Shown: piece after piece, positions 5,365-23,725 of the stretch
How the letters are laid out: every line of letters begins with the position of its first letter
How positions within the stretch are numbered: the stretch's first letter is position 1
IMG/VR virus record: IMGVR_UViG_3300049002_000024
Coordinates: 1 to 44,963 of that record
Source: a virus
Direction: 5' to 3' (one strand)
Length of the DNA stretch: 44,963 nucleotides
Made by a program: the position numbers and the translations under genes
Notes under the pieces: model-generated
What the model was told of the DNA's origin: nothing
Databases searched by the model: none
What the model saw: only the letters and a program-made list of their open reading frames with translations

Positions 5365-5577
5365 TCACCGGGCACCCTCATCGAACAAAGCGTCGATGCT
5401 CGTGTCGAGCGCGCGAGCGAAGAGCGGCACCTTGCCCGCGCTTGGCATCTGGCGACCCAGCTCGATAGCGACCAGCATCGGCGGCGAGCACCCAACCTGT
5501 GCGGCGAGAGCGCGCTGCGACATGCCGCGGATCAGGCGCAGCGCGCGCACGTTCTGCCCGAACCCCTTCGGCAGCAT
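5365..5577 (-). CDS. Cro/CI-family (XRE) HTH regulator
   Basis: A 70-residue single-domain protein with a canonical XRE helix-turn-helix (VRALRLIRGMSQRALAAQVG, then PPMLVAIELGR). It has no dimerisation or peptidase domain, so it is Cro-sized. It is divergent from the regulator at 5659, with shared operators between them. This is the arrangement of a lysis/lysogeny switch, with this gene as first cistron of the leftward early operon. Confidence 0.8.
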   Translation of the reverse strand: MLPKGFGQNVRALRLIRGMSQRALAAQVGCSPPMLVAIELGRQMPSAGKVPLFARALDTSIDALFDEGAR

Positions 5578-5658
5578 ACGATGGACGGTTATCCTAGAAT
5601 GAACACTCCGTCAAGTCGCCGGGTGTTCAGTCTGTTCACTCTCTCACCAGGAGCGCAC
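5578..5658. promoter_or_regulatory. Divergent promoter/operator region of the regulatory switch
   Basis: TGAACA-type half sites occur at 5600-5605 (TGAACA), 5624-5629 (TGTTCA) and 5633-5638 (TGTTCA). The first two are inverted relative to each other. TTGACG and TAGGAT are present on the minus strand, but their spacing is short, so promoter boundaries are uncertain. On the plus strand AGGAG lies five bases before the ATG at 5659. Confidence 0.6.
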
Positions 5659-6087
5659 ATGGCAAAGCCAACGCGTGACGGCGATGAACCCCTCGGTAAG
5701 GGGGAAATGAAAGACGTGACTGACAAGTGGCGGCGCGACACGAAGGCCACCATGAAGCGATTGAACATCAGCGTCCGGGAGCTGGCCAAGCGGATCGGCG
5801 CGAGTGAGGGAAGCGTTAGCGAGGTACTCAACCCCGCTCACAAGAAAAAACAGTGGTCCTGGGTCGATGCCTGCGAGGAGGCGCTACGACGCGAGGAGGC
5901 CAATCCACAGCCCCGACAGCGCGCGCCGCGCCTACCCGGCACGGCGCGTAATGCGGTACGGCTCGACGTCGTCACCCAGGACCTGAGCGCCGAGGAGTGC
6001 CGCAACCTGCTAGCGGGCTACGTGCGCACCATGCCGATCGATCAGGTCCACGCATGGCTGGCGTGGTTCGATCTGCGCCCACGATGA
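5659..6087 (+). CDS. HTH regulator, candidate lysogeny repressor
   Basis: The 142-residue protein has an HTH at about 32-66 (MKRLNISVRELAKRIGASEG followed by SVSEVLNP), a basic/proline linker (about 82-105), and a C-terminal helical tail (109-142). The start is supported by AGGAG five bases upstream. Thirteen positions of the tail recur without gaps in the separate 48-residue protein at 19483, so the tail is probably an interaction module. Divergent transcription from the Cro-like gene marks it as the partner regulator. Which of the two maintains lysogeny is not decided by sequence. Confidence 0.65.
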   Translation: MAKPTRDGDEPLGKGEMKDVTDKWRRDTKATMKRLNISVRELAKRIGASEGSVSEVLNPAHKKKQWSWVDACEEALRREEANPQPRQRAPRLPGTARNAVRLDVVTQDLSAEECRNLLAGYVRTMPIDQVHAWLAWFDLRPR

Positions 6088-6199: not shown

Positions 6200-6358
6200 G
6201 TGCGAGTCACCTCGGGGGAGAATGACGATCGCAAGGAGCGCCGTGCTCTGCGCGTTGCGCTGTACCACCTCGCCGCGTCTGACATGGACGAGCTGCGCGT
6301 GATTACGCGCTTGCTCCTCCGCGGCGACATGCCTCCGCTGAACATTAACGAAAAATGA
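6200..6358 (+). CDS. 52-residue hypothetical protein
   Basis: A GTG start is preceded by GAGAGG at eight bases, and an in-frame stop lies just upstream. The product is a charged helical microprotein (RKERRALRVALYHLA and DMDELRVITRLLLRG). Its TGA falls inside the perfect palindrome TGAACATGTTCA. The helical pattern is loosely like the tail of the regulator at 5659, but I cannot claim homology. Function unknown. Confidence 0.55.
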   Translation: MRVTSGENDDRKERRALRVALYHLAASDMDELRVITRLLLRGDMPPLNINEK

Positions 6359-6450
6359 ACATGTTCAGTTGACGTTCAATGAACGTTCATGGCACACGAT
6401 GAAGCCATGGACGTTCATGGGGAACGAGCCACTGTTCAACGGTGCGCGCC
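6356..6450 (+). promoter_or_regulatory. Operator cluster TGAACATGTTCA / ATGAACGTTCAT
   Basis: Two perfect 12-bp palindromes lie at 6356-6367 and 6379-6390, 23 bases centre to centre, with further GTTCA half sites near 6373 and 6412. TTGACG at 6369-6374 sits between them and could be a -35 box. A 15-codon ORF (ATG 6407, TGA 6452-6454) ends overlapping the next ATG and might couple translation. Confidence 0.6.
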
Positions 6451-8241: not shown

Positions 8242-9219
8242 ATGGCTGACGAGACGAACATCGCGCGCCCATCGCGCGCCGCGTACGACGCCACCGGTAC
8301 CGCGATCACGCGCTCGGGATTCGGCGAGACGGCGCTCGAGCAACGTCGCGAGCTGCAGTCGACCGCGCTTGCCGAGCGCACCCGGGCCGAGATTCAAGCC
8401 ATGTTCATCGTGGCGCTGCAGCGGCCCCGCAGCCTCGACGAATTCCGGCGGCGCGTCCTCGACCACTGCAAGCGGCCCGGCTTCGCGATGACGGCGGAGT
8501 ACGCCAAGCCGATCGGCTCGAGCAAGGTCAAGGGACCGAGCATCCGCTTTGTCGAGACTGCGATCCAGGAATTCGGCAACGTGCGTCCGACGTCGTCGGT
8601 GCTCTACGACGATCACGACAAGCGCACCATCCGCGTGAGCGTGACCGACCTCGAGCGGAACGTCAGCTACGACGACGAGATCGTGCTCGAGAAAACCGTC
8701 GAGCGGCGGGACCGACGCGGCTACGACGTACTCAGTAGCCGCACCAACAAGGATGGTGACGTCGTGTTCATCGTGCGCGCGACCGAGGACGATCTCCGCT
8801 CGAAGCAAGGCGCGGCCGTGTCGAAGACGCTGCGCACGCTCGGGCTGCGCATCCTGCCAGCGGACATCGTGGCGGAAGCGATGGACGAGTGCCGTCGCAC
8901 GCGGCAGAACAAAGACGCGCAGGACCCGGACGCAGCGCGGCGCGCAGTTGTCGACGCGTTCGCTCCGCTCGGGGTGATGCCGCGCGATCTCGATGAGTAC
9001 CTCGGCCACCCCCTCGCTGCGTCGTCACCGGCGGAGCTAGACGAGCTGCGAGTCGCGTTCGCGACCGTTCGCGATGGAGAGACACGATGGGTCGATCTCG
9101 TCGAGGCGAAGCGCGCGGAACGCGGCGAGGTAGAGCAAGTCAGCAAGCCGGGGGAGACTGCAGCGGCCAAGATTCAAGCCCGCATCGCCAGCAAGCGAGG
9201 GAAGGAGCAAGCGCCATGA
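8242..9219 (+). CDS. Probable single-strand annealing protein partner of YqaJ
   Basis: The 325-residue protein contains GPSIRFVETAIQEFGNV and long strand-helix stretches (RVSVTDLERNVSY, EIVLEKTVERR). The GPSIRxxE motif is found in proteins encoded beside phage YqaJ-type exonucleases. By position this should be the RecT/Rad52-type annealing partner. The C-terminal 80 residues are charged and probably flexible. The subfamily is not certain from sequence alone. Confidence 0.6.
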   Translation: MADETNIARPSRAAYDATGTAITRSGFGETALEQRRELQSTALAERTRAEIQAMFIVALQRPRSLDEFRRRVLDHCKRPGFAMTAEYAKPIGSSKVKGPSIRFVETAIQEFGNVRPTSSVLYDDHDKRTIRVSVTDLERNVSYDDEIVLEKTVERRDRRGYDVLSSRTNKDGDVVFIVRATEDDLRSKQGAAVSKTLRTLGLRILPADIVAEAMDECRRTRQNKDAQDPDAARRAVVDAFAPLGVMPRDLDEYLGHPLAASSPAELDELRVAFATVRDGETRWVDLVEAKRAERGEVEQVSKPGETAAAKIQARIASKRGKEQAP

Positions 9220-10407: not shown

Positions 10408-11295
10408 ATGGGGATCACACGAGGGACCGTTGTGCTCGCGCTCCTTGCGGGGTGCGGCACGGTAACAGCGGAGGCGCCCGACGCGTTCATCCGCGAGGGT
10501 GATGACATCGACGCACGCACGGCGGGATTGCCCGACGCGTCGGGCTCGACGCCGGAAAACGGCAACGGTGATGGAGGGACACCGACGGCGGGAATGGTGC
10601 CGGTAGCAGGCGGGAGCTACTGGCAAGGGTGCACGGTGACGGATCCGGAGATCTGCGGCTACGGCGCGACGCCGTACCATCAGGTGACGCTCGATGACTA
10701 CTGGATCGACCGCACCGAGGTAAGCCAAGCGGCGTACGCGGCGTGCGTTGACGCGGGCGATTGCCCGGCGCCGGAGGCCATCAACCGTGAGAGCAAAGCG
10801 CCGGTCGTCAGTGTGTCGTGGCCCGACGCGCTCCGCTTCTGTCAGTGGCGCGGCGCGCGCCTGCCGACGGAAGCGGAGTGGGAGCGCGCGGCGCGCGGCA
10901 CGGACACGCGGCTGTATCCGTGGGGGGATCAGGCGCCGAGCTGCGAGGTGATCTACGGCGCCTGCCCCGGCGTGGTCGCCACCTACGACGTGGACATGCC
11001 GCAAGGCGCGAGCCCGGTCGGTGCCCTGAACATGGCGGGCAACGTCGAGGAGTGGATCGGCGACTGGTACGAGGAGAGCTATTACTCGCACGCGTCGGAG
11101 GTGCACAACCCGCGCGGCCCCGCGACCGAGCCGGTGATGCCCGGTGGCGCACGCAAGGTGCTGCGCGGTGGCTCGCTCTTCGATGGCACCCGGACGCAAC
11201 GGTACTGGCGAGCGCACTACCGCACGAGCGCTGCGCCGTCGACACGCTCGAACTACCGCGGCTTCCGCTGCGCCTACAGCGAGGTGACGCCGTGA
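10408..11295 (+). CDS. FGE-sulfatase-fold (SUMF1-like) lipoprotein
   Basis: A short signal peptide ends in the lipobox LAGC (13-16) and is followed by a flexible Asp/Gly-rich linker. The rest has the formylglycine-generating-enzyme fold: MVPVAGGSYWQGC, DYWIDRTEVSQAAY, RLPTEAEWERAARG, YPWGD, NMAGNVEEWIGDWY, KVLRGGS and final YRGFRCA. Such domains occur in enzymes and in C-type-lectin-like binding proteins, including targets of diversity-generating retroelements. No reverse transcriptase is present here. As a surface lipoprotein it may be a lysogenic-conversion factor. I infer no catalysis. Confidence 0.8.
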   Translation: MGITRGTVVLALLAGCGTVTAEAPDAFIREGDDIDARTAGLPDASGSTPENGNGDGGTPTAGMVPVAGGSYWQGCTVTDPEICGYGATPYHQVTLDDYWIDRTEVSQAAYAACVDAGDCPAPEAINRESKAPVVSVSWPDALRFCQWRGARLPTEAEWERAARGTDTRLYPWGDQAPSCEVIYGACPGVVATYDVDMPQGASPVGALNMAGNVEEWIGDWYEESYYSHASEVHNPRGPATEPVMPGGARKVLRGGSLFDGTRTQRYWRAHYRTSAAPSTRSNYRGFRCAYSEVTP

Positions 11296-13901: not shown

Positions 13902-13944
13902 TCGTACGATTTCCCTTGCGGTTCGTACGACGATACGCTATTGT
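13902..13944 (+). promoter_or_regulatory. Promoter-operator P1 (TCGTACGA type)
   Basis: TCGTACGA at 13902-13909 and 13923-13930 flank a -35 box TTGCGG (13916-13921). After a 17-base spacer comes TATTGT (13939-13944). Only nine bases separate the -10 from the ATG, which predicts a leaderless mRNA. Confidence 0.75.
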
Positions 13945-13953
13945 CTTTTCACG

Positions 13954-14316
13954 ATGACGAACGCGGACGTTACCCGGGACGAATCAGAGACCACCATCAC
14001 GCTCGAGCGCTCCCTCGGGCTCGTCGACGAGAAGGGGCGCGCCGTCGGCGGCTTCGCGTCCATTAGCAAGGAGCCACGGTACCGGGGCTCATGGGTCGCC
14101 AAGTATGCGCCCGACGGCACCTACCTCGAGACGGTACACGTGCGGGGGGAGATCCTCGGGTACGAGGTCGAGATCCGGGCGACGCGTGACGGCGAGACGT
14201 ACGGCGCGAGCCCGCGCAGCACGTACTACGGGACTCCCGAGGCAGCGCTCGCCGCCGCCATGAAGGGGCTCGCCGCGCAAGCGAAGCGCTACGCAAAGAA
14301 GTACGCCGCGAAGTGA
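13954..14316 (+). CDS. Array gene 1, hypothetical 120-residue protein
   Basis: The protein has an acidic N-terminus, a beta-rich middle (WVAKYAPDGTYLETVHVRGE, then GYEVEIRATRDG) and a Lys/Ala-rich C-terminal helix. It is the only gene between promoters P1 and P2. There is no Shine-Dalgarno, in agreement with a leaderless transcript. No family recognised. Confidence 0.65.
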   Translation: MTNADVTRDESETTITLERSLGLVDEKGRAVGGFASISKEPRYRGSWVAKYAPDGTYLETVHVRGEILGYEVEIRATRDGETYGASPRSTYYGTPEAALAAAMKGLAAQAKRYAKKYAAK

Positions 14317-14347
14317 CATCTCGCAGGACCCGTGTCGTCGTAACGCG

Positions 14348-14390
14348 TCGTACGATTTATCTTGCGATTCGTACGACGCTCGTGTAGAGT
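14348..14390 (+). promoter_or_regulatory. Promoter-operator P2 (TCGTACGA type)
   Basis: TCGTACGA at 14348-14355 and 14369-14376, -35 TTGCGA (14362-14367), 17-base spacer, -10 TAGAGT (14385-14390), ATG nine bases later. Operator spacing is 21 bases, as in P1. Confidence 0.75.
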
Positions 14391-14399
14391 CTTCTAACG

Positions 14400-14630
14400 A
14401 TGACGAACACGGCGACCCTCGCGACCCTCCCCGTCCTCGCCGGTGCCTACCGGAAGAAGCTGTCCGCCACCGCCCTGCTCACCCACACGGTCAACCTCGC
14501 GACCGGCGCCGTCCTCTGCACCCGGGTCAACCCGGACCACATGGCGGATGAGTACGCGCACACCGAGGAGGAAGCGGCCGCGGCCCCCACGTGTAAGCAG
14601 TGCCGAGCGCGCGACCCTCGGTTCGTCTGA
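14400..14630 (+). CDS. Array gene 2, small protein with CxxC
   Basis: A 76-residue protein, single cistron downstream of P2. It begins MTNTATLATL, similar in first residues to array gene 1 (MTNADV), and ends with CKQC. No Shine-Dalgarno. Function unknown. Confidence 0.6.
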   Translation: MTNTATLATLPVLAGAYRKKLSATALLTHTVNLATGAVLCTRVNPDHMADEYAHTEEEAAAAPTCKQCRARDPRFV

Positions 14631-14646
14631 AGGGGGCGGGGCGGCG

Positions 14647-14690
14647 TCGTACGATTGCGCTTGCATCGCGTCGTACGAGTCTGTTACACT
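14647..14690 (+). promoter_or_regulatory. Promoter-operator P3 (TCGTACGA type)
   Basis: TCGTACGA at 14647-14654 and 14671-14678, -35 TTGCAT (14661-14666), -10 TACACT (14685-14690) with an 18-base spacer. Here a leader of about 35 bases with AAAGGA precedes the ATG, unlike P1 and P2. Confidence 0.7.
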
Positions 14691-14730
14691 GGACTGGGGT
14701 GCGCCCCGCGAAAAATCAAAGGATTTGACG

Positions 14731-15058
14731 ATGCCCGCTAAGATTTCCGACACCTGCAAGATCGCTCTCGGCAAGCACCCGGAGCGCGACATCTGGTTCG
14801 TCCTATGGACGGAGACGCTCACCGGTCGGCGTCCTCGCGCTCTGTCCGTCCGCCTTCTGCGACCGGGGCGACGCGTTCCAGGCTGCCGTCAACGTCGCGC
14901 GCGACCTGTCCGGCGACCCTCGCCGCATGCGGAAGCATGCCAAGTGGCTCGACGTGTCGCAGCACGGCATCACGTCGGACACGCGCGCCGAAGCGATTAG
15001 CGGCGACGGCTCGCTCTTCGAGCGCGCGTGCACCGAGCTGCGCGCTTCCGTGTGGTGA
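14731..15058 (+). CDS. Array gene 3, interrupted by an apparent +1 frameshift
   Basis: Translation from the ATG (AAAGGA seven bases upstream) gives a sensible N-terminus (MPAKISDTCKIALGKHPERD, then IWFVLWTETLT). It turns into a basic shadow after about 14824. The adjacent frame continues with normal coding character (VGVLALCPSAFCDRGDAFQA to a TGA at 15056-15058). Skipping one base near 14824 joins them into a protein of about 108 residues. This may be a sequencing error, a real mutation or programmed shifting. Function unknown. Confidence 0.45.
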
Positions 15059-15075
15059 TCCGCTGATCCGCTAGC

Positions 15076-15128
15076 TTGCGTCTCGTCGTACGATTCTAGT
15101 TGCGTCTCGTCGTACGATACTCTAGAGT
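15076..15128 (+). promoter_or_regulatory. Promoter-operator P4 (TCGTACGA type, partly duplicated)
   Basis: TCGTACGA at 15086-15093 and 15110-15117, -35 TTGCGT (15100-15105), 17-base spacer, -10 TAGAGT (15123-15128). The 19-base stretch TTGCGTCTCGTCGTACGAT occurs twice, at 15076 and 15100, a local tandem duplication. Seven bases separate the -10 and ATG. Confidence 0.75.
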
Positions 15129-15135
15129 CGTTTTC

Positions 15136-15360
15136 ATGATGACGACGCGCACCGGCCGCCCCTCCGCTTCTAAGAAGGCCGCCAAGGCCTTCCTCACCCT
15201 CGCGCTCACCCACGTGGAAAGCGCGAGCATTCGCGCCTGGGCCACCACCGCCCACAACGGGCCGCTCTTCCTCGCCGAGGCGCAAGAGCGCCTCCGCGTC
15301 GGGCGCACCGATGCCACCACGTTCGCCACAGCGATCGTGTGCTTAGCCATCGGGCTCTAG
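15136..15360 (+). CDS. Array gene 4, small basic protein
   Basis: A 74-residue protein with a basic N-terminus and a helical segment KKAAKAFLTLALTHVES. The RRKFVALLTLALRPG segment of array gene 5 is similar (LTLAL plus basic N-terminus), so genes 4 and 5 may be diverged duplicates. Leaderless by promoter spacing. Confidence 0.6.
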   Translation: MMTTRTGRPSASKKAAKAFLTLALTHVESASIRAWATTAHNGPLFLAEAQERLRVGRTDATTFATAIVCLAIGL

Positions 15361-15390
15361 GCCCCACGGGGGCGCTACCCCGCCGCGTCC

Positions 15391-15438
15391 CCGTACGACG
15401 ATTTGCCGCTTGCACTCGTACGACGAATCATCTAGAGT
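15391..15438 (+). promoter_or_regulatory. Promoter-operator P5 (TCGTACGA type)
   Basis: CCGTACGA (15391-15398, one mismatch) and TCGTACGA (15416-15423) flank TTGCAC (15410-15415). After 17 bases comes TAGAGT (15433-15438), and ATG follows nine bases later. Confidence 0.75.
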
Positions 15439-15447
15439 CTTCTAACG

Positions 15448-15681
15448 ATGCCGACGACGCCCCGCACCCGCCGCAAGTTTGTTGCTCTCCTGACCCTCGC
15501 GCTCCGCCCCGGCACCCCCGGCGAAGCGACCGCGGCATGGCTCGCGGTCGCGCGCGAGGGAGCCCGACTCGCGTACCCCCTCGACACTCTCTACGACGCG
15601 CACAAGGCGACGCTCGTTGACGAGCTGGGGATCTGGCCGCTCGTCGTCGACGCCTACTACGACGTCGCTGGCGTCGCCTGA
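15448..15681 (+). CDS. Array gene 5, small helical protein
   Basis: A 77-residue protein: basic N-terminus, LTLAL-containing helix, then an acidic helical half. Probably related to array gene 4. No known family. A strong hairpin follows the stop. Confidence 0.6.
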   Translation: MPTTPRTRRKFVALLTLALRPGTPGEATAAWLAVAREGARLAYPLDTLYDAHKATLVDELGIWPLVVDAYYDVAGVA

Positions 15682-15697
15682 CACCACCCCGCAAACC

Positions 15698-15717
15698 GGG
15701 CCCCGATGTCGGGGCCC
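15698..15717 (+). terminator. Strong hairpin after array gene 5
   Basis: GGGCCCCGA (15698-15706) and TCGGGGCCC (15709-15717) form a 9-bp stem with a two-base loop, followed by CCTTCCTC. The U-tract is poor, so it may be a partial terminator allowing some read-through. Confidence 0.5.
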
Positions 15718-15741
15718 CTTCCTCACCCCCGGAGGTCTCTC

Positions 15742-15939
15742 ATGTCCAAACCTACGACGTTCACCGCGTGCCTCGCCGCGCTCACGCTCGACGCGTTCCC
15801 GACCCTAGGGCTCGACTACAGCAACGCCGTACCCTGCGGCGAGTGCGACCGCTGCAAGGCGCGCGCTGCCGCGAAGGCCCGACGGTTGTGCCCCGTCGAC
15901 GGATGCCCGCCATGCCCGTTCGACGGGGGGTGCTCGTGA
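15742..15939 (+). CDS. Cys-rich zinc-binding-like microprotein
   Basis: GGAGG lies six bases before the ATG. The 65-residue product has CGECDRC and CPVDGCPPCPFDGGC motifs, a dense metal-ligand cluster in its second half. Stop overlaps the next GTG. Function unknown. Confidence 0.6.
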   Translation: MSKPTTFTACLAALTLDAFPTLGLDYSNAVPCGECDRCKARAAAKARRLCPVDGCPPCPFDGGCS

Positions 15940-16139
15940 GCAAGCTGCTGTCCCCTGCGATGATCACGGTGCTGCGCGCCGCGGCAGCGAGCAAGTACGG
16001 AACGGTGTCCCCGGGCAGCCTACACGGCAGCCGTCAGACGATCGACGCACTCGAGCGCCGCGGCATGCTCAAAGCAGTGTGGCGCCACGGATTCCGGCAG
16101 TACGGGATCACCGATGCCGGCCGCGCAGCGCTCGCGTAA
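15936..16139 (+). CDS. Winged-helix-like DNA-binding protein
   Basis: A 67-residue protein: MITVLRAAAAS, SPGSLHGSRQTIDALERRGM, then YGITDAGRAAL. This matches a minimal winged helix of the phage type that ends in a ITxxGRxAL wing. GTG overlaps the upstream TGA. A candidate regulator within the array. Confidence 0.6.
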   Translation: MSKLLSPAMITVLRAAAASKYGTVSPGSLHGSRQTIDALERRGMLKAVWRHGFRQYGITDAGRAALA

Positions 16140-16155
16140 AGCGCCGCGTCGTCAC

Positions 16156-16173
16156 TTGCGTCTCGTCGTACGG
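16156..16173 (+). other. Decayed TCGTACGA promoter remnant
   Basis: TTGCGT (16156-16161) followed by TCGTACGG (16166-16173) resembles the array promoters, but no -10 box or gene follows at the expected distance. The 16140-16272 interval has no ORF that I support. Confidence 0.45.
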
Positions 16174-16272
16174 GGGTCTGGCACGTCGAACCGACGTCAT
16201 GTTCCACAGCGCGGTTGACCGGTGTACGCGATCACCGCAAAAAGGCCGCGCCGTTCTGCAGGGTTAGTATCG

Positions 16273-16315
16273 TCGTACGATTCTCGTTGCACTCGTCGTA
16301 CGAGTCGTGTAGTCT
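16273..16315 (+). promoter_or_regulatory. Promoter-operator P6 (TCGTACGA type)
   Basis: TCGTACGA at 16273-16280 and 16296-16303, -35 TTGCAC (16287-16292), 17-base spacer, -10 TAGTCT (16310-16315), and ATG nine bases later. Confidence 0.75.
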
Positions 16316-16324
16316 CTCCTAACG

Positions 16325-16610
16325 ATGAACGACACGACGACGACCCGCCCCGCCGACGCTACCGACCTCACCGTAGGTTGCGGTGTTCCAGTGGAACACC
16401 CGCGCCGTCAACCCCGACGGCACCCTCAAGGGGGCCCCTAAGGCTGCCGATGGTGCCTTCCGTGGCTACGCTGCGCACGGCTACGGCGACTACCTCCCCG
16501 GCGGAAACCCGATCTATCAGGGGCCCGTGCGTGAGTACTACGGCACCGCGCTCTCCGACTGCGACCCGGACTCCCCCGCGGCGCTGCGGATCGTCGGGTA
16601 CTCCTTCTAA
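16325..16610 (+). CDS. Array gene 6, in two frames
   Basis: From the ATG at 16325 (promoter spacing as in P1) the frame runs 38 codons to a TAA at 16439. A second, better-looking frame starts at GTG 16383 and runs to 16610 (WNTRAVNPDGTLKGAPKAADG and on to a Tyr/Gly-rich end). Skipping one base near 16382 would fuse them. Either the second part is translated from GTG after TAGG, or the gene carries a frameshift like array gene 3. Unknown function. Confidence 0.45.
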
Positions 16611-16653
16611 AAGCGACCCGCCCGAAGCGGGGCCCGGGATCGCCCGCCCACCG

Positions 16654-16698
16654 TCCTACGATTTCCAGTTGCATTCCGTACGACGAGTCTGCTACACA
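16654..16698 (+). promoter_or_regulatory. Promoter-operator P7 (degenerate TCGTACGA type)
   Basis: TCCTACGA (16654-16661) and CCGTACGA (16676-16683), each with one mismatch, flank TTGCAT (16669-16674). TACACA (16693-16698) is a possible -10 with an 18-base spacer. It drives a three-gene operon with normal ribosome-binding sites. Confidence 0.6.
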
Positions 16699-16750
16699 TG
16701 AGAGCGTGGGGATCCGGGCCGATGCGCCGCGGCCCCCGCAGGAGCACCCG

Positions 16751-16984
16751 ATGGCACGCAAGGTTACGAAGCCCAAGATCGTCCGCGCCCCCGACCTCGC
16801 CGATCTCCTCGACAGCGAGAGCTTTGCCGAGGCGCAGTCTCATCTCGCCGTGATCGTGTCCGCATTCGGCCACGCCGAATCCTGCGAGACGGCGGCGGAC
16901 TTCCTCGCCAACCTGACCGACGCGCTCGGCGAGCTTGACGCGCTCCGTGACGCGATCAACGAGTGCCTCACCGAGGCCGGATGA
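16751..16984 (+). CDS. Small acidic helical protein
   Basis: CAGGAG is six bases before the ATG. A 77-residue protein, mostly amphipathic helix with an acidic C-terminal part. Its TGA overlaps the next ATG. No family recognised. Confidence 0.6.
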   Translation: MARKVTKPKIVRAPDLADLLDSESFAEAQSHLAVIVSAFGHAESCETAADFLANLTDALGELDALRDAINECLTEAG

Positions 16985-17127
16985 GTCGTCGCGTCGTGCA
17001 CGCACGCGCGCAGGGTGGCGCTCTCTGCAGCCGCACCGTCGTCGCGCCGACGACGGTGGTACGCGCCGACGTCACCTGCCAGAAATGTCTCGCAGCACTC
17101 AAGGAGTTTCCGTCATGGCCAAACTGA
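16981..17127 (+). CDS. 48-residue Cys-containing microprotein
   Basis: ATG overlaps the previous TGA (ATGA). The product has a basic N-terminus, a strand TVVAPTTVVRADV and a CQKC pair. It overlaps the following gene by 13 bases. Unknown function. Confidence 0.5.
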   Translation: MSRRVVHARAQGGALCSRTVVAPTTVVRADVTCQKCLAALKEFPSWPN

Positions 17128-17432
17128 CTCCCGTCCCCGTCCGTGATCACGTGCGCAAGCTCCTCGACGCTGGCGACGAGTCGACCGCCGCCCGCATGCT
17201 CGCCGCCGTCACCCCCCGCGGCCCCGTCAAGCCTGGCCCGGTCCCGCGCGCTGGCGAGGCTGGCAAACCCGTCACGTTCAAGGCCAGCGCCGACGAACGC
17301 GCCATGTACGAGGAGCAAGCGCTCGAGGACGGGTTCGAGAAGCCGGACGGATCGGCCAATCTTAGCGACTGGATCCGCGACTGCCTTACGGCGCGCATTG
17401 AGGCAAGCGCCCCGGCCCGCCGCCGCCGCTGA
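17115..17432 (+). CDS. Ribbon-helix-helix-like DNA-binding protein
   Basis: The 105-residue protein has a clear ribbon-helix-helix pattern in its second half: strand KPVTFKAS, helix ADERAMYEEQALEDG, helix NLSDWIRDCLTARIEA, and a basic tail. AAGGAG is eight bases before the ATG. RHH proteins bind tandem short palindromes cooperatively and often autoregulate. Being transcribed from a TCGTACGA-type promoter, this is a reasonable candidate for the repressor of the array. That link is inference. Confidence 0.6.
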   Translation: MAKLTPVPVRDHVRKLLDAGDESTAARMLAAVTPRGPVKPGPVPRAGEAGKPVTFKASADERAMYEEQALEDGFEKPDGSANLSDWIRDCLTARIEASAPARRRR

Positions 17433-22260: not shown

Positions 22261-22286
22261 TACTCGTACGACGAATCATATAGACG
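22256..22286 (+). promoter_or_regulatory. TCGTACGA-type promoter of the integrase operon (P8)
   Basis: TCGTACGA at 22264-22271 is followed by CGAATCAT and TATAGA (22279-22284), closely matching the sequence downstream of the second operator in P5. Only one operator copy is present, and the -35 (TTTCAT) is weaker. Confidence 0.6.
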
Positions 22287-22316: not shown

Positions 22317-22484
22317 ATGCCCGACCCAGCCACCGAACAAGAGGAGCGCGCTCGCGAGCGCGCTGCTAACGCATTCCACGACCACCCTAGCAACCCCAGC
22401 ACATGCGCCGCCGCGCGAGAGGCAGGCTGGCGCCGGTGCCCGTGCGAGGAGCGCTGGCGCGACTACGTGGAGGTGATGCCGTGA
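22317..22484 (+). CDS. 55-residue protein preceding integrase
   Basis: The product is charged and helical with three cysteines and a Trp/Arg-rich end (GWRRCPCEERWRDYVE). Its TGA overlaps the integrase GTG (GTGA). Small proteins immediately before int are sometimes excisionases, but no HTH is visible here. Function unknown. Confidence 0.55.
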   Translation: MPDPATEQEERARERAANAFHDHPSNPSTCAAAREAGWRRCPCEERWRDYVEVMP

Positions 22485-23725
22485 ACCTCTCCGCTGCCCG
22501 CACCGTCACCACCTCGCAGGCTCCTCGGAAGCGCGTCCGCGCCGGTGGCCGCATCGTCTGGGAAGCCTACGGTGCACACGAGGGGGAACAGTACTTCCTC
22601 GGCACTCAGCCGACCGAGGAGGAAGCGCAGGCGCGGATCGACGACTTCGCGTACAAGGTCCGCGAGCGCAAGCGGCAGATCGCCGCCGGTCAGACGCCGA
22701 TGCCGCTCGTCAGCATCACGCTCGCGGATGCCGCGAAGGAGTGGCTCGAGTGGCTCGAGAACCCGGACAACACCGGGCACCGAAGTCGGAGCAAGTACGA
22801 ATCACAGCTCCGTCTCCACATCCTCCCGGCGTTCAAGGATGGCAACGTGACGCTCGAGGAGATCACTCCGGCGATGGTGCGCACGTGGCTCACCAACCTG
22901 ACGAAGAAGAAGGGGAACGCGAACGGCCGCAAGGATGTCCTGCTCAAGGCACAGACCGCGAACACCGTGCGCATCTGCTTCTCGAGCTTGCTGACGTGGT
23001 GCCGGAAAGATGTCGACTACCTCGCGGTGAACCCGATCTCGAACACGAAGCAGCTCACGACGCGCAAGCGGATCTTCTCGTACATCCATTCGCTCGGCGA
23101 CGTCACGAAGCTACTCGCCGCCGTCGAGGGGCGCTACCGTGAGGCGACCGAGGACGCTCGCGAATTCCTCGGGCTCCTCGTCGCCACCGGCATGCGTTTC
23201 GGCGAGCTGCTGTCGCTGCACTGGGCCGACGTACATCTCGACGAGCGATTCATCCACGTGTGCTCGGGCGGCCGCGGTCGCACCGCGTTCGAGACGCGCC
23301 CGACGAAAAACAAGAACGGCGAACCTCGCAACATTCCGATCCTCGACGCTGCGCTCCCCATCCTTCAGGCGCGCCACCTACGCACGAAGGGGCAGGGATT
23401 CGTGTTCGCGTCGCCGCGCGGCGGCATCCGTCGCGAAGGACCGTTCACGACGATCTTCAAGCGCGCGCTGAAGAAGTCCGGCATCGAGCGCCCTAGCAAG
23501 CTGCCGCTTCGCGTGCACGACCTTCGGCACACGTTCGCGGTGCACTGGGTGTCGACCGGCGGCGACATCTACTCCTTGAGCAAAGTCCTCGGGCACTCGA
23601 GCGTGCGCACCACCGAGGAGTACTACGCCGACTATCAGGTTCAAAACTACGTCCAGCACTACCACCGCGTCGGGTTTCGCTTTCCCGTCGCCGATGCCAC
23701 CGTCACTGCTCTCCGCGCCGTCTGA
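22481..23725 (+). CDS. int: Tyrosine-family site-specific integrase
   Basis: The 414-residue protein has the phage integrase layout: an N-terminal arm region, a core-binding SAM-like domain (about 78-145, SITLADAAKEWLEWLE), and a catalytic domain with R239 (ATGMRFGELL), H346-x-x-R349 (HDLRHTF), H372 (LGHSS) and the nucleophilic Tyr (381 or 382, TEEYYADY). It integrates and excises the phage genome at att sites. The start is GTG overlapping the upstream gene. The catalytic set is complete. Confidence 0.92.
   Translation: MNLSAARTVTTSQAPRKRVRAGGRIVWEAYGAHEGEQYFLGTQPTEEEAQARIDDFAYKVRERKRQIAAGQTPMPLVSITLADAAKEWLEWLENPDNTGHRSRSKYESQLRLHILPAFKDGNVTLEEITPAMVRTWLTNLTKKKGNANGRKDVLLKAQTANTVRICFSSLLTWCRKDVDYLAVNPISNTKQLTTRKRIFSYIHSLGDVTKLLAAVEGRYREATEDAREFLGLLVATGMRFGELLSLHWADVHLDERFIHVCSGGRGRTAFETRPTKNKNGEPRNIPILDAALPILQARHLRTKGQGFVFASPRGGIRREGPFTTIFKRALKKSGIERPSKLPLRVHDLRHTFAVHWVSTGGDIYSLSKVLGHSSVRTTEEYYADYQVQNYVQHYHRVGFRFPVADATVTALRAV

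Follow-up and report, generated by a model that had tools for sequence, protein, structure and literature searches.

We describe here an array of repeated promoters with paired operators in a viral genome, IMG/VR record IMGVR_UViG_3300049002_000024. The window that we analysed is this whole record (44,963 bp, 66% G+C), which appears to be a temperate tailed phage. The array lies in a plus-strand region that has recombination genes on one side and an integrase gene on the other. It comprises at least seven near-identical promoters (P1 to P7), all on the plus strand, between positions 13902 and 16698. Their common layout is the operator TCGTACGA, a TTGC −35 box, a second TCGTACGA, and, with a spacer of 17 to 18 bp, a −10 box of the form TANNNT/A. 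The −35 hexamer and the −10 box are 17 bp apart, or 18 bp in P3 and P7. These elements (TTGCNN, 17 to 18 bp, TANNNT/A) predict promoters of the sigma-70 type, and we infer from sequence that they are active.

P1 (13902-13944) has operators at 13902-13909 and 13923-13930 (21 bp from start to start, the measure used throughout), with −35 TTGCGG at 13916-13921 and −10 TATTGT at 13939-13944. P2 (14348-14390) has the same 21-bp spacing, with operators at 14348-14355 and 14369-14376, TTGCGA at 14362, and TAGAGT at 14385-14390. The distance is 24 bp both in P3 (14647-14690; operators 14647-14654 and 14671-14678, TTGCAT at 14661, TACACT at 14685-14690) and in P4 (15076-15128; operators 15086-15093 and 15110-15117, TTGCGT at 15100, TAGAGT at 15123-15128), and P4 also contains a 24-bp tandem duplication. 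P5 (15391-15438) has a 25-bp distance, with left operator CCGTACGA at 15391-15398, right operator at 15416-15423, TTGCAC at 15410, and TAGAGT at 15433-15438. In P6 (16273-16315), operators at 16273-16280 and 16296-16303 are 23 bp apart, with TTGCAC at 16287 and TAGTCT at 16310-16315. P7 (16654-16698) has degenerate operators 22 bp apart, TCCTACGA at 16654-16661 and CCGTACGA at 16676-16683, followed by TACACA at 16693-16698; its −35 is TTGCAT at 16669. Apart from P5-left and the two P7 operators, all operators are exact TCGTACGA copies (11 of 14), and TTGC stands between the operators in all seven sites. Many operators are flanked on one side by CG(T) (CGTCGTACGA, or TCGTACGACG in the reverse orientation), and this extension may belong to the true site. 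There is also a decayed copy on the same strand (16156-16173), which retains TTGC and a right operator, TCGTACGG, and has lost both the left operator and the −10 box. A first-pass annotation of this DNA, made without database searches, had proposed seven promoters of this layout with mostly exact operators spaced 21 to 25 bp apart, a partly duplicated P4, and a decayed copy at 16156. All of these were recovered.

The array is far denser than chance would produce. The window contains 15 copies of TCGTACGA against 0.99 expected (an approximately 15-fold enrichment), and five exact TCGTACGA pairs, whereas 100 dinucleotide shuffles gave 0.00. With limited mismatching tolerated in the 6-bp cores, the complete layout was found seven times; 60 Markov-resampled windows averaged 0.08 occurrences and never had more than 1. 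Three exact TCGTACGA copies (24147, 27311, and 43487) fall inside reading frames.

At every site, counting the seven in the window and one in each of two other phages described below, a start codon follows the −10 box by 6 to 9 nt. It is an ATG in seven of the nine sites (P1, P2, P4, P5, P6, and both relatives; chance P about 6e-8), and a GTG in P3 (8 nt) and P7 (7 nt). With ATGs this close to the −10 box, transcripts are therefore predicted to begin no more than about 3 nt from the start codon, which would make the mRNAs leaderless. Among the 77 genes called in the window (with a simple codon-usage script rather than a trained gene finder), only four have TANNNT 6 to 10 nt upstream of the start (13954, 14400, 15136, and 15448), and all four are operator-driven. 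None of the four has a Shine-Dalgarno motif, compared with 54 of the 77 called genes overall. The operator-driven units thus look leaderless, a feature absent from the first-pass annotation.

The units themselves are short and mostly consist of a single gene, all on the plus strand. P1, P2, P4, and P5 each drive one apparently leaderless orphan gene: 13954-14316 (120 amino acids, with its ATG 9 nt after the −10 box and no Pfam, PHROG, or PADLOC family), 14400-14630 (76 amino acids, with a CxxC motif), 15136-15360 (74 amino acids), and 15448-15681 (77 amino acids). The P4 and P5 products were considered as paralogues and rejected (BLASTP E = 3.1). The P3 unit (14699-15058) opens with GTG 14699, the start of a nine-codon leader open reading frame (ORF) that stops just ahead of a Shine-Dalgarno–led ATG at 14731; the gene has an apparent mid-gene frameshift, and its coding frame ends at 15058. 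Folding of the P3 leader was no better than that of shuffled sequences. The P6 unit (16325-16610) is an apparently leaderless orphan gene with an apparent frameshift midway. The P7 unit has three genes. The first (16706-16984) starts either at a GTG 7 nt after the −10 box, in frame with the called gene (92 amino acids), or at an internal Shine-Dalgarno–led ATG at 16751 (77 amino acids). The second (16981-17127) encodes 48 amino acids with cysteine motifs, and the third (17115-17432) encodes a putative ribbon-helix-helix (RHH) protein, the candidate regulator of all sites. No unit gene matched Pfam and the PADLOC scan was empty, leaving the products as orphans. A strong GGGCCCCGATGTCGGGGCCCC stem-loop after the P5 gene (15698-15718) is possibly a terminator or attenuator ahead of two further ORFs.

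The sites could be promoter-like repeats that have no present function and were spread by cassette duplication. P1 and P2 share 81% identity across 67 nt, first codons included, and the decayed copy and the two frameshifted-looking genes would fit such a history. We consider it highly improbable, because the sites conserve their operators, −35, spacing, −10, and start-codon distance whereas the bases in between and the genes vary, and because two otherwise unrelated phages have retained this layout.

These two phages came from four pattern scans of 2.9 million viral contigs, from which records very near the window were possibly left out. Only two other contigs had the complete layout, each at one site with an ATG 6 nt after the −10 box: IMGVR_UViG_3300044704_000032 (G001, 29.5 kb) and IMGVR_UViG_3300020021_000016 (G002, 55 kb). 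The remaining viral pattern matches (L006, L008, L025-L027, and L029-L062 except L043) lacked the layout; we rejected them as coding repeats or chance occurrences. In both relatives the first gene of the unit is small and has cysteine motifs, and the second is an RHH gene. The two RHH proteins share 60-62% identity; that of G001 (P0001) matches the Pfam NikA-like model with 27.5 bits (cut-off 27) and that of G002 scores 21.1 bits, below the cut-off. The G002 site is ~320 bp past the end of an integrase gene, again close to integration functions. Between that integrase and the operator (L043, about 590-640), there is a sequence resembling a tRNA 3′ end (T-arm), a possible attP core. Further relatives were sought without success: the G001/G002 gene pair found no other phage, the window integrase and the 8242-9219 protein (one search each against viral contigs) found no relatives of the window, and the short RHH domain alone gave no confirmed match. 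Likewise, blastn of the array region against 50,697 phages returned no match, nor did tblastn searches of phages and plasmids with the three RHH proteins.

We find that the RHH protein is the best candidate regulator, because it is the only one of the 77 window proteins that matches ORFs in both relatives (phmmer 6.7e-6 for G001 and 4.9e-5 for G002; tblastn agrees). It is favoured by this exclusive co-occurrence with the operator, by the location of its gene in an operator-driven unit in all three phages (in the window, at the end of the P7 unit), and by its predicted DNA-contacting strands, which are near-identical in the three proteins (KPVTFKAS, KPITFKAS, and KPVTLRAT). AlphaFold models this part of the G001 protein as beta-alpha-alpha, with a predicted local distance difference test (pLDDT) score of about 80-86. 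In all three phages, a palindromic operator overlaps the promoter of the very operon that encodes the RHH protein (above the Pfam cut-off in G001, with homologues in G002 and the P7 unit), as in an RHH-autorepressed operon. The suggestion in the first-pass annotation that the protein at 17115 could bind the operators thereby gains independent support, with binding itself a prediction.

The operators could instead be bound by an XRE repressor or another helix-turn-helix (HTH) protein of the phage, as in a classical immunity regulon, with the RHH gene merely regulated. The window does encode an XRE repressor (HTH_3, 1.9e-11) with a divergent HTH gene (5365-6087), as well as further weak winged HTH proteins, and phages that combine one immunity repressor with many operators are known (PMC6550527). 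However, the XRE control region (5578-5658) carries a different palindrome, TGAACAC/GTGTTCA, and no TCGTACGA, unlike a classic cI-type system with the operator at the repressor gene. Furthermore, neither the XRE pair nor the other HTH proteins have a match in G001 or G002, which both keep the same operators. An immunity regulon of this kind is therefore unlikely. TGAACA/TGTTCA boxes cluster between the two XRE-type genes and behind them (5600-5640 and 6339-6440); they are probable operators of a separate lysogeny repressor.

The same geometry is almost absent from cellular DNA. With a strict pattern, 257 Gb of prokaryotic sequence (85,000 genomes) yielded 14 stretches, and the first-pass annotation's concern that operator pairs might occur at similar density in unrelated host DNA was not borne out. 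Eight of the 14 (seven in Clostridia and one in Treponema; L009, L011, L016-L018, and L020-L022) lie ahead of a gene for a Phd-type antitoxin, and a PIN toxin gene comes next in every stretch that extends far enough. The Clostridia loci have TTGC −35 boxes, about 17 bp to the −10, and −10 boxes such as TATAAT. The TCGTACGA pair around the −35 is apparently a conserved operator of this group of Phd antitoxins. The other six (L010, L012-L015, and L019) were unlinked to any recognised regulator.

These loci raise the possibility that a host repressor or antitoxin, for example of the Phd/YefM type, binds TCGTACGA, and that the phage took over a host operator, which would make its small genes responsive to the state of the host. 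YefM-type antitoxins do bind paired palindromes (PMC4803016). We regard this as rather improbable: the Phd-PIN hosts use canonical TATAAT promoters, all but one of the loci are taxonomically far from a phage of 66% G+C, the 85,000-species scan gave only its 14 stretches and no high-G+C candidate host with the site ahead of a Phd gene, and the phage itself supplies a linked RHH gene. Searching the window with the Phd and PIN proteins (tblastn) found nothing that would indicate a type II toxin-antitoxin module. The likeness is probably convergence on a good geometry for autorepression. Note that the Phd-PIN loci show that a repressor can use this layout; they do not show which protein acts on it in the phage.

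A co-regulated regulon of small phage genes, as the first-pass annotation had proposed, is supported because the layout far exceeds chance, recurs in two further phages, and is nearly missing from host DNA. Its label of 'accessory' genes is a guess, since the gene products are orphans. We favour an early regulon of small orphan genes that is autorepressed by the RHH protein, to which we assign a probability of roughly 0.6. Each promoter has a pair of operators, the first immediately before the −35 and the other within the −35/−10 spacer, and the phage RHH protein (17115-17432) most likely binds them. Cooperative binding of RHH dimers to several operators is known (PMC5569661). RNA polymerase would be blocked by a dimer on the spacer operator, and the upstream dimer would make this block stronger. 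Repression is the simplest sign because binding would fall between −35 and −10. The units would fire together on infection or induction and be shut off as RHH protein accumulates. Since the RHH gene sits behind P7, which has the most degenerate operators, the repressor gene might stay on longest, as a negative-feedback timer; this late shut-off is our guess.

The RHH protein might conversely activate these promoters, with the upstream operator recruiting RNA polymerase to a poor −35. The −35 is indeed off-consensus (TTGC rather than TTGACA), every site has an operator just upstream of it, and some RHH proteins (AmrZ) act both as activators and as repressors (PMC3325190). Activation nevertheless seems very unlikely to us: all nine sites have a second operator between −35 and −10, a position that usually blocks polymerase, the −10 boxes are good, and the best-studied RHH regulators repress their own promoters (PMC5569661).

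Several observations weigh against an RHH-autorepressed regulon. The operators are 21-25 bp apart, and this variation speaks against a strictly cooperative contact of dimers. The window RHH protein scores in no Pfam or NCBIfam model and its structural model is poor (pLDDT 63); its putative RHH fold is based on homology to P0001. Foldseek with the G001 model found nothing. The first genes of P3 (14731-15058) and P6 (16325-16610) start properly and appear to lose frame midway, through mutation, assembly error, or a programmed shift. Only three phages with the layout are known, and the first genes of G001 and G002 are also weakly related, so promoter, first gene, and RHH gene may travel as one cassette that has no regulatory link.

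The integrase unit is a probable, not certain, further member of the regulon, which the first-pass annotation had not included. A single plus-strand operator (22264-22271), sharing the exact 18-mer ACTCGTACGACGAATCAT with P5, lies upstream of a 55–amino acid ORF (22317-22484) that overlaps the start of the tyrosine integrase gene (22481-23725, plus strand; Pfam Phage_integrase). The −35 and −10 are ambiguous here, with TATAGA nearby or TAGGGT 7 nt ahead of ATG 22317.

The first-pass annotation knew of no described system with this exact arrangement. That claim needs qualifying, because repeated or paired phage sites and the −35 geometry of toxin-antitoxin operons are both known. Cluster O mycobacteriophages (Corndog) carry more than 30 copies of a 17-bp palindrome and SigA promoters with leaderless starts (PMC4351075). 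The likeness lies in a palindrome repeated phage-wide, with many intergenic copies, and in some promoters being predicted leaderless; however, their palindrome is single, genome-wide, and has no reported fixed place relative to −35 and −10, whereas two 8-bp operators bracket the −35 in our local array. In Cluster K, start-associated sequences (SAS) and their extended forms (ESAS) precede a subset of non-structural gene starts in 11-19 copies per genome (PMC3203893). These repeats are paired in about half of cases, but the SAS (13 bp) has a proposed role in translation initiation and the ESAS is 17 bp, whereas our operators embrace the −35 of leaderless-looking units. Cluster A (L5-type) phages similarly have one repressor and many sites per genome, yet these stoperators are asymmetric, the repressor that binds them is a monomer with two domains, and they also halt elongation at places other than promoters (PMC9283540, PMC6550527). 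The window operators are palindromic and all lie in promoters, except for the three single coding-region copies. Phage phiC31 has many palindromic operators, its conserved inverted repeats, at the early promoters that drive small genes, under one repressor; palindrome and repressor differ from those of the window.

Among archaeal viruses, SvtR and F55 are virus-encoded RHH proteins; SvtR represses its own promoter and binds other viral promoters, and F55 binds tandem repeats (PMC5569661). They differ in having archaeal promoters and other sites, and no array of leaderless units has been reported for them. The Phd/YefM-PIN operons share the paired TCGTACGA around a TTGC −35 and, in the Clostridia loci, about 17 bp to the −10; they are, however, single autoregulated toxin-antitoxin operons with a Phd-type rather than an RHH antitoxin. 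The palindromes of Escherichia coli yefM (TGTACA) are 12 bp apart (PMC4803016).

Elsewhere, the window encodes a YqaJ-type recombinase nuclease and a DNA methyltransferase, and from 24 kb onward the minus strand carries a tail tape-measure–like protein and other apparent structural genes. A lipoprotein-like gene with an FGE-sulfatase domain (10432-11295) is a possible lysogenic cargo gene.

More tentatively, operator, promoter, and start codon might form one portable cassette, which would set leaderless immediate-early genes apart as a class of their own in a phage whose other starts are mostly of the Shine-Dalgarno type. Such a cassette could duplicate and capture orphan genes under one small RHH repressor, with a link to the integrase. 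This is possible, although we lean against it. If these readings are correct, paired TCGTACGA around TTGC, with a start codon 6-9 nt after the −10, would be a signature for early genes of poorly known phages, and one that comes with a named candidate regulator. The array would also provide a testable case of a phage that separates a co-regulated gene set by its mode of translation (leaderless versus Shine-Dalgarno), and of gene capture through the duplication of a promoter cassette.

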